Below are positions 3,431-7,298 of a DNA stretch of 7,574 nucleotides, one piece after another; the first letter of the stretch is position 1; every line of letters begins with the position of its first letter. The position numbers and the translations under genes were made by a program. Source of the stretch: an uncultured Lachnospiraceae bacterium (GTDB lineage Bacteria > Bacillota > Clostridia > Lachnospirales > Lachnospiraceae); NCBI GenBank assembly GCA_937915975.1, contig CALGGL010000179.1:1-7574 (forward strand), in the 5' to 3' direction. The notes under the pieces were generated by a model, which saw nothing but the letters and a program-made list of their open reading frames with translations, searched no databases and was not told the origin of the DNA.

Positions 3431-3510
3431 AATGGGGATTCGAGCATTTATTATACTAAAACGAATGGGGATTTGAGTAATAAAATGATTTACACGAACG
3501 GGGATTTGAG
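3431..3510 (+). repeat. Three phased 33-bp direct repeats upstream of ATPase
   Basis: The 14-bp core AAYGGGGATTYGAG occurs three times, at 3431-3444, 3464-3477 and 3497-3510, with starts exactly 33 bp apart (about three helical turns). Copies 2 and 3 also share an ACG just before the core. The 19-bp stretches between cores differ in sequence, so the cores and the phase are what is kept. The last core fills the spacer of the ATPase promoter. The 333-bp gene-free stretch 3209-3541 otherwise holds the LytTR promoter, its candidate site and two palindromes. The best reading is an operator for an unidentified regulator that binds one face of the helix; an iteron-like or mobile-element signature is the alternative. 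Confidence 0.8.
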
Positions 3511-3517
3511 CTATACT
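3489..3517 (+). promoter_or_regulatory. Promoter of the AAA_14/DUF4143 ATPase
   Basis: TTTACA (3489-3494, 5/6) and TATACT (3512-3517, 5/6) are separated by exactly 17 bp. Transcription would start near 3524, leaving a leader of only about 18 nt that carries the AAAGGTGG ribosome binding site (3527-3534). Repeat copy 3 lies wholly between the -35 and -10, so a protein bound there would directly affect polymerase. Confidence 0.65.
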
Positions 3518-5706: not shown

Positions 5707-6309
5707 ATGAAGCTTGAAACAAAAAGACTGATTTTGCGTCGATGGGAAGAAAGTGACGCAGAGGATTTATACAGGTATGCAAGTAACCCTGATGTCGGTC
5801 CGATTGCAGGATGGCCTGCACATCAGAGCATTGAGAAAAGCCTTGATGTGATAAAAAATGTTTTTAACGGTAAAGAGGCGTACGCAATCTGCCTGAAGGA
5901 AGACGGAAAGGCTATCGGTGCTATTGAATTAAAGTTAAACGGACACACGGATTTGACGGATAAAGGTGATGAGTGCGAGCTTGGTTATTGGCTTGGAAAG
6001 CCGTTTTGGGGGTTCACGATGTCCGGTGGACATCGGCTATGAACCGACCGAAGCGGTAGCGGAGACCAGGGTATTATGCCTGAAGCGGTAGATGAAATAC
6101 TTAGACATGCTTTTATTGATTGCGGCATGACGAAGGTATGGTGCGCATATTACGAGGGAAACAGTAAGTCAAAGCGCGTTCAGGAAAAATGCGGATTTAA
6201 ATTTCAGTGGAAATCAGAGAATGTAGATGTTCCGCTTATGCATGAGAAAAGAAACGGATATGTAAATCTGATGACAAAAGAAGATTGGGAACTTGGAAAT
6301 AAGCAATGA
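5707..6309 (+). pseudogene. RimJ/RimL-like GNAT acetyltransferase interrupted by a 54-nt insert
   Basis: The N-terminal 102 codons (MKLETKRLILRRWEESDAEDL through GYWLGKPFWG) and the C-terminal 80 codons (QGIMPEAVDEILRHAF onward) are in the same frame and form one typical Acetyltransf_3-type GNAT of about 182 residues once the 54 nt between them are ignored. GNATs of this class transfer acetyl from acetyl-CoA to an amine, such as a protein N-terminus or small molecule. The insert breaks the acetyl-CoA-binding WGQGIMPEA motif and brings an in-frame TGA at 6040-6042, so translation would stop after 111 residues. The downstream half could restart at ATG 6076 behind GGAG and AGGG supplied near the insert's end, but a split enzyme is unlikely to work. 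Both halves otherwise look intact, which implies a recent insertion or some way of bypassing it. It follows the XRE gene by 20 nt. Confidence 0.88.
6013..6066 (+). mobile_element. 54-nt palindromic insert within the GNAT gene
   Basis: Removing exactly these 54 nt restores the canonical W-G-Q-G-I-M-P-E-A of GNATs. The insert is visibly more GC-rich than its host gene. It holds a perfect hairpin, CGATGTCC (6017-6024) with GGACATCG (6028-6035) around a GGT loop, and a smaller ACCG-AAG-CGGT hairpin (6047-6057). In the host frame it carries a TGA, but in the frame beginning at 6011 it stays open. No target-site duplication is visible and it encodes no transposase, so it would have to be non-autonomous, like REP, MITE or Rickettsia palindromic elements. 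The boundaries rest on GNAT motif restoration, so they may be off by a base or two. Confidence 0.65.
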
Positions 6310-6936: not shown

Positions 6937-7156
6937 ATGGCATTTGATTATAAGAAAGAGTATAAAGAATTTTATATGCCGAAGGGGACACCTTCTATTG
7001 TGACAGTTCCGAAGATGAATTATATCGCGGTAAGGGGCATATGTACTTGACATTACATATAAAAGATTACATCATGAAATATATCTCAGTGATGCAAGAA
7101 AGGTTGTACCCGAGAAATTAAAGACAGTGATTAGACATCCAATCAGAAAGGGTTAA
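6937..7156 (+). pseudogene. GyrI-like small-molecule-binding protein, internal deletion remnant
   Basis: The first 33-34 codons (MAFDYKKEYKEFYMPKGTPS through MNYIAVRG) match the start of GyrI-like, AraC effector-binding-type proteins common in Clostridia, and a TGA ends this frame at 7048-7050. From about 7040 the next frame continues with AYVLDITYKRLHHEIYLSD and ends in RHPIRKG at 7154-7156, the expected C-terminus of the same family. Family members of this kind are about 200 residues as I recall, so roughly 130 central residues (about 400 nt) have been lost, with a frame change at the join near 7034-7040. The ribosome binding site GAGGAG (6923-6928) is still present 8 nt before the ATG. The protein cannot be functional. 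Intact members bind small cationic or hydrophobic ligands or act as part of multidrug sensing. Confidence 0.85.
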
Positions 7157-7250: not shown

Positions 7251-7298
7251 TATAATTCCCCAAAATATGCATTGGTTTATATATTTTGGGGAATTATA
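7251..7298. repeat. 18-bp perfect inverted repeat before the last gene
   Basis: TATAATTCCCCAAAATAT (7251-7268) is matched perfectly by its reverse complement at 7281-7298 around a 12-nt loop. It separates the decayed cluster from the last ATPase gene. It could stop transcription in both directions, though no strong U-run follows. The length and perfection of the arms also fit the end of a small mobile element or an operator. Confidence 0.75.

Follow-up and report, generated by a model that had tools for sequence, protein, structure and literature searches.

The 7,574-base contig CALGGL010000179.1 of an uncultured Lachnospiraceae bacterium (assembly GCA_937915975.1), analyzed here over its whole length and hereafter called the window, encodes a GNAT acetyltransferase (positions 5707-6309, plus strand) whose gene contains 54 extra bases between its two halves. 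The 5' part (5707-6012, codons 1-102, ending ...KPFWG) matches positions 1-93 of the Acetyltransf_3 profile (PF13302, E 8e-15) and the 3' part (6067-6309, from QGIMPEA... to its stop) matches positions 94-138 (E 6.7e-9). The halves are thus adjoining stretches of the profile, no part of the domain is lost, and the original prediction that an insert splits this gene is confirmed. The cut falls within the conserved WG/QG motif. Removal of the insert does bring both halves into the same frame, as had been claimed, with the motif WGQGIMPEA. The ends of the insert are uncertain by 1-2 nucleotides (nt), positions 6013-6066 and 6012-6065 giving the same frame, and the nearest uninterrupted relative, P0002, reads WGMG, not WGQG. 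The insert is richer in G+C than the GNAT flanks (59% vs 42%) and introduces an in-frame stop, TGA at 6040-6042, as its tenth codon; both features had been seen correctly from the start. Insertion after the WG codons is likely to inactivate the acetyltransferase gene.

Close relatives of this gene exist with and without the insert. When used as a protein query, the interrupted first half retrieved P0001, a 97% identical protein of 111 residues that ends in the insert-coded residues FTMSGGHRL and represents 19 sequences clustered at 90% identity, from three contigs, the longest of 137,662 bases. In P0002 (187 residues), 98 of 100 residues are the same as in the window up to the cut, after which the protein runs straight on as WGMGIMPEA. 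It follows that both kinds of allele are present in close relatives; the empty site that had been proposed as a check on the insertion is there, and the opposite outcome, that all orthologues carry the sequence as a normal coding loop, does not apply.

The insert is a member of a dispersed family. A sensitive blastn search of phage records yielded two human-faecal records, L001 and L002, that match to within a base of the 3' end of the insert; the E-values are weak (0.7 and 9), and the matches are credible because they share the fold of the insert. Exact long-pattern scans gave no match, plasmid searches gave only short matches (8 and 4 records) that we take for chance, and scans of viral contigs with patterns derived from L001 and L002 also returned mostly chance hits, with nine of 34 loci (L003-L036) accepted as true copies after both helices were read (L005, L008, L009, L014, L015, L017, L020, L026 and L031). 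A pattern scan of the genome collection found at least 119 stretches, a few of them by chance; among the 80 titled matches listed, 76 belong to Lachnospiraceae or other Clostridia, and the four from other phyla (Streptomyces, Phycisphaerae, Roseivivax and Nocardiopsis) are chance matches. The ends of the family are sharp: 116 unique core-aligned copies are informative at columns 28-85, with at most 0.18 bits per column outside (three of 125 rows, in which the upper helix is missing, were dropped from this alignment; among the 122 retained, six form no more than one pair of the lower helix). Counted from the GG of the lower helix, the copies are 54-56 nt long (159 copies, overlapping loci included). 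Thus, the search for many copies with the same ends, which had been suggested as a check, came out in favor of a dispersed element with constant ends.

The structure of the family consists of two stacked helices, 14 pairs in total. In the window, the lower helix is formed by GGTTCA (6011-6016) and TGAACC (6040-6045), the first three bases of the latter being the in-frame stop; the upper 8-bp helix is formed by CGATGTCC (6017-6024) and GGACATCG (6028-6035), which enclose a 3-nt loop (6025-6027; GGT, family consensus RGK by column counts) and are followed by a 4-nt bulge (6036-6039; family consensus GYTT); and the tail GACCGAAGCGGTAGCGGAGACC (6046-6067) corresponds to the family sequence GACCGNAGCGNAGCGNAGACC with one extra T. 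The predicted 8-bp hairpin with its 3-nt loop accordingly stands, but its extension beyond the bulge had been overlooked. The evidence for the structure is covariation over relatives, not the stability of a single sequence: folded alone, the window insert does not differ from chance (z -1.0; 33 of 200 shuffled sequences are as stable). In alignment A1, which was reduced by hand from 129 unique copies to 73, has the window insert as its first row and is the source of covariance model R1, 96.3% of cells are paired compared with at most 42.6% when partners are slid, the double-changed cells number 186 vs 47.6 in shuffles (none of 500 reaches 186), and the covariation score is 0.494 vs 0.123. The bare number of pairs changed on both sides, nine, is not above the control (52 of 500 shuffles reach it). 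The upper helix is 99.8% paired; four of its eight pairs change on both sides, and the other four were fixed by the search pattern; the remaining ten pairs of the structure do not depend on how the copies were collected, except that eight loci (L019, L039, L042, L055, L069, L110, L118 and L150) were excluded individually once they had been read, mostly for lacking helices (L150 for runs of N), so that the set leans towards paired copies. In some copies, the apical GTCC/GGAC is swapped for other complementary bases. The tail is conserved without covariation, and therefore the second small hairpin of the original prediction (ACCG AAG CGGT) is unproven; only a minority of copies have its closing T, an additional base, and the adjoining CCG and CGG are nearly or wholly invariant. 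A search of the window against Rfam 15 gave six matches at E 5 or better, none of which reaches its curated score or overlaps 6009-6068; no structured RNA or ribozyme family in that database thus matches the insert.

With respect to distribution, a covariance-model search of seven genomes found 87, 41, 25, 5, 14, 4 and 2 copies, the 87 being in a single Butyrivibrio genome. By the same kind of search, at least one copy is present in at least 84 of 180 sampled Lachnospiraceae genomes, and at least five of 299 genomes across the phylum carry the family, the Butyrivibrio center itself among the five; these counts are lower bounds, at most 30 candidates per genome having been scored in the family scan and at most 18 in the phylum scan. 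The hosts are mainly Lachnospiraceae and include isolates of Butyrivibrio and Coprococcus comes. Some single genomes contain several identical copies, as if recently spread, but in like surroundings.

The GNAT codon is a recurrent site. In contig C202 of genome G096 (locus L294), a distinct copy of the element occupies the same codon and shifts the frame. The last residues of the protein P0044 match translations of the element at 14 of 16 positions, and the protein ends inside the element. In P0073, the residues after WG are readable as a hairpin, GGTCGTCC-GGT-GGACGACC, followed by QGIIPEA in another frame. Hence three lineages have different copies at one and the same codon, and a fourth, P0073, may be added judging from its peptide alone. 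Uninterrupted, the site reads TGGGGN in 22 GNAT rows (21 distinct genes, L297 repeating L283; L285 and L295 were not caught by this motif). A GNAT match at E 1e-30 or better was found in 41 of the 180 sampled genomes, with an interruption in G096 only. In a tree of the N-terminal sequences, P0044 is apart from the window group, and G096 and the window fall in a clade of seven (support 0.81) that includes four uninterrupted proteins. The differences in sequence and length between the copies favor separate insertions at this codon; for the window and G096, one old insertion followed by repeated loss could also account for the pattern. Two further GNAT proteins, P0109 and P0112, are identical over 100 residues and, precisely behind these WG codons, either diverge from the family or terminate.

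The other insertion sites are diverse. In L008 and L009, the same TGG GGG precedes the interruption of an HNH endonuclease gene (PF01844). In L002, a 52-nt copy lies between bases 36 and 37 of a tRNA-Arg(ACG), and its removal yields a canonical tRNA-Arg(ACG); other copies reside in sequences resembling tRNA-Pro or tRNA-His and, in antisense orientation, in tRNA-Glu sequences; by eye, several of these are degenerate. Inspection by eye also places copies in ribosome-binding stretches (L070, L079 and L093) and in other repeats. Nearly all element copies sampled in Butyrivibrio are hosted by a separate 44-nt double-hairpin repeat with varied helices, CCTTCCCC..GGGGGAAGGTG..CGGATGAGG (CCTTCCCC..GGGGGAAGGTGTCAGCGAAGCTGACGGATGAGG), found in G001 and G002 (L037, L214-L273); there are 88 element-free copies of this repeat in the two genomes, and the loci compared include 45 filled and 44 empty ones. 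At several loci of another genome, G059 (L200-L205), a TTGTCATTCTGAGCGAA..GCGAAGAATC repeat holds a CGTCCTAAGG..CCTTAGGAC repeat that in turn holds the 53-nt element, and the outermost repeat has a GAGCGNAGCGAAG flavor in common with the element tail. In Butyrivibrio, 45 of 53 sampled copies are outside any called open reading frame (ORF), of the 44 intergenic copies flanked by called genes on both sides, 39 lie in sense orientation between genes running their way, and 50 of the 53 are on the positive-skew strand, a bias confounded with gene direction. Replication-strand bias as a general rule was rejected, as only 56 of 98 copies conform outside Butyrivibrio (Butyrivibrio-type loci having been split off by hand); there, the upstream gene runs in the same direction in 32 of 44 intergenic cases. 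A screen for split genes by open frames on both sides proved too unspecific to count, and ORF-based assignments of copies to the inside of genes are unreliable and were not used.

Comparison of filled and empty sites defines the outcome of insertion. In the 44-nt repeat, the G run that precedes the element is already present in the empty copies, and the element starts with CGCA or CGCT. On the right, all 44 empty repeats have AA; after the AGAC of the element, both A residues are kept in 6 of 45 filled repeats, one in 29 and none in 4, and in the other 6 the element stops a few bases short and lacks the C. Therefore, insertion involves no duplication and removes zero to two bases of the target, from which the outer GG of the lower helix is derived. 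In G096, the GG likewise lies within the TGGGG of the gene. By the evidence of these sites, the GG of the lower helix arm at 6011-6016 in the window is wholly or partly target-supplied; in the tRNA-Arg of L002, where the insertion is exact, only one of the two G can belong to the tRNA. The inner pair on the target side (columns 31/63) covaries as well, T being accompanied by A in six of nine T cases (Fisher p 8e-7, uncorrected for relatedness); no empty site is resolved for these copies, and the T may be the element's own. Taken with the G or GG held in common with the target, this pattern suggests, without proving it, that the element recognizes its target by pairing. A screen for covariation between target and tail gave weak signals only.

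The reading that appears best able to accommodate these observations is that the insert belongs to a new family of non-autonomous, hairpin-forming mobile repeats. We consider it probable that the 54 nt represent a family of palindromic repeats of ~53 nt in Lachnospiraceae that likely spreads as non-autonomous mobile DNA, and that the GNAT gene has likely been inactivated by the insertion; the preferred interpretation of the original prediction, a new family of tiny mobile palindromes, is thereby borne out by many dispersed copies, sharp ends, covarying helices and empty sites. As for the mechanism, the mobile form, DNA or RNA, might be a folded single strand that pairs with a target GG through the CC at the 3' side of its lower helix, and element and target would be joined by a trans-acting enzyme. 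Such CC-GG pairing would account for the preference for G runs (TGGGG, CTTGGGG, AAAGG) and for the repeated use of one GNAT codon. A more ambitious proposal, which we put forward tentatively and as the less probable part of the picture, is that these repeats represent a class of tiny elements that choose their targets by base pairing, CC to target GG completing the lower helix, and that an enzyme of an unrecognized type, neither a Y1 transposase nor a reverse transcriptase, inserts them into genes, tRNAs and repeats, re-using single sites such as the GNAT codon.

Several facts weigh against this interpretation. The right-hand ends vary by 1-3 nt, which is less tidy than the products of most recombinases, and the borrowing of GG could be a mere preference for G-rich insertion sites. 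Insertion into hairpin loops was considered and rejected, flank-to-flank complementarity around the insertion points being at the chance level (mean 9.27 vs 9.22 in shuffles, 124 copies). By eye, 52 of the 53 sampled Butyrivibrio copies are inside one larger repeat, so that the composite rather than the 53-nt unit may be what spreads in Butyrivibrio; the identical copies found within single genomes share their surroundings as well. P0002 groups closer to the window than P0001 does (support 0.75), so that its site may have been emptied by loss of the element instead of never having been occupied. Furthermore, no mobilizing enzyme was found: over the 180 genomes, the presence of the element is not associated with Y1 transposase (PF01797; 50 element genomes with and 34 without it, 55 and 41 of the others; odds ratio 1.10, p 0.88), reverse transcriptase (RVT_1; 45, 39, 56 and 40 in the same order, p 0.55, with no match in the 87-copy genome) or RtcB (32 of 84 element genomes vs 27 of 96 others, p 0.20). 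Nor did the 299 records searched contain a version with a gene between the two halves; in these records, a left half stands alone once (L164) and a right half 13 times. Of the latter, four (L177, L188, L074 and one of two in L041) are complete elements whose apical stem differs, and the rest are partial copies or chance matches.

Could the same facts be explained by other kinds of elements? The alternative with most in its favor, albeit still improbable, is a repetitive extragenic palindrome (REP, or REPIN) moved by an IS200-like Y1 transposase of the RAYT type, to which the imperfect palindrome, the dispersal in many copies, the strand-specific folding and a possible analogy to the guide-target pairing of IS608 would all be congenial. 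Yet the foot of the hairpin has no GT(A/G)G head, and a Y1_Tnp match is lacking in 34 of the 84 element genomes and in 7 of the 20 with high copy number, with the caveat that the genomes are incomplete drafts and that the model searched may miss distant relatives. A tiny intron, cut from the RNA with the ends sealed possibly by RtcB and the gene kept functional, is somewhat less probable again, even though the tRNA-Arg(ACG) of L002 is canonical apart from its 52-nt copy between bases 36 and 37, an RtcB gene (PF01139, E 7.5e-54) ends ~350 nt upstream of this tRNA with another ORF between, and RtcB is enriched in genomes with at least eight counted copies (13 of 20 vs 46 of 160, p 0.002). This enrichment may reflect shared ancestry, 7 of the 20 high-copy genomes have no RtcB, and the overall association is absent, as stated above; moreover, many copies are intergenic or lie in other repeats (the 45 of 53 in Butyrivibrio), no Rfam family matches the insert, and the tRNA-His-like and tRNA-Pro-like copies have lost or altered tRNA bases (by eye, against the tRNA consensus) that exact removal would not restore. 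The arrangement in L002 is in itself of note: the RtcB gene (642-1856) is upstream of three tRNA genes (2207-2495), the first of which is interrupted in the anticodon loop.

Translational bypassing, in which ribosomes would skip the insert as they do in gene 60 of phage T4, had been named as a less likely possibility, and the length near 50 nt, the hairpin, the stop codon and the Gly codon before the gap do resemble that case. Judged by the published rules (PMC5009743), the parallel breaks down: the take-off codon GGG is not matched by the triplet GAC ahead of the resume codon CAG, which leaves no landing codon there, and the stop comes as codon ten of the insert, not directly after the take-off codon. 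Given also that in G096 the copy occupying this GNAT codon causes a frameshift and that many copies are outside genes, we regard bypassing as very unlikely. Least plausible of all, and in our view practically negligible, is an assembly chimera or sequencing artefact. The record is probably a metagenome assembly, and the contig end is probably contaminated, positions 1-17 of the window (GTGTGCTCTTCCGATCT) resembling the end of an Illumina adapter; but P0001, from other assemblies (three contigs), ends in the same insert-coded residues, and the same element recurs in named isolate genomes, and this recurrence speaks against the outcome that would have undone the original prediction.

If the family is indeed one of non-autonomous mobile repeats, it bears on the long-standing question of how the smallest bacterial repeats move. 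It offers resolved filled and empty sites, clear ends, isolate hosts (Butyrivibrio and Coprococcus comes) and a coding hotspot used in multiple lineages, and therefore insertion and excision are measurable. It also accounts for truncated acetyltransferases and broken tRNA-like sequences that would otherwise be annotated as separate errors, and it serves as a warning of nested layers of such repeats in gut genomes.

Elsewhere in the window, three direct repeats of ~11 nt (GGGGATTYGAG) occupy positions 3434-3513 ahead of an AAA_14/DUF4143 ATPase gene. Short broken frames after a good start (MAFDYKKEYKEFYMPKG...) at 6937-7155 are perhaps a second decayed gene near the GNAT gene, presumably the remains of a gene for a GyrI-like protein; a Pfam check of the decayed frame (6937-7047) matched no family. 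A perfect 18-bp inverted repeat with a 12-nt loop at 7251-7298 is possibly a terminator.

How does this family compare with known systems? Among the mainly open-access papers listed by literature searches on palindromic or miniature repeats of Lachnospiraceae, Butyrivibrio and Roseburia, there was no description of a ~53-nt family of this kind, nor was there one among those listed for RtcB introns, small dispersed repeats, Rickettsia elements and bypass elements. The small dispersed repeats (SDR) of Nostoc, reportedly treated by Elhai and colleagues in 2008, are said to be very small mobile repeats nested in other repeats, which is the likeness here; they are cyanobacterial and not known to be related in sequence or host family, a contrast by description and not by a comparison of sequences. 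Miniature inverted-repeat transposable elements (MITEs) are likewise short, non-autonomous and devoid of genes, but the consensus of the present family has no terminal inverted repeats at its ends, and the 45 filled and 44 empty host repeats show the loss of zero to two bases and no duplication, none being seen at the tRNA-Arg of L002 either. The bypass segment of T4 gene 60 and the byp elements of Magnusiomyces are also short interruptions of coding sequences; both are skipped during translation, the T4 segment being 50 nt long, with hairpins and a matched-codon rule (PMC5009743), a rule that fails for the GNAT insert. With the REPs and REPINs mobilized by RAYTs, the family shares an imperfect palindrome, many copies, lack of autonomy and a hairpin of single-stranded DNA or RNA. 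REPs have a GT(A/G)G head 5' of the imperfect palindrome (PMC2817692, PMC3116915) and are also known inside genes (PMC3733652). The present consensus reads RGGGCGCA... on the plus strand and starts with GGTCTMCGC on the reverse strand; instead of a 5' head, the family has a conserved tail 3' of the hairpin, its copies occur within genes and tRNAs, and it shows no dependence on Y1_Tnp over the 180 genomes, the draft genomes without a PF01797 match included. Finally, the Rickettsia palindromic elements, which the original prediction cited as a parallel, are short palindromic dispersed repeats inside protein-coding genes too. The likeness goes no further. The Rickettsia elements are ~150 bp long and fused in frame to the protein (PMC10969869), whereas the elements of the present family are ~53 nt long and are found mainly in Lachnospiraceae, not Rickettsia, and they stop or shift the GNAT genes that they enter, by the TGA in the frame of the window gene, by the end of P0044 inside the element and by the frameshift at L294.
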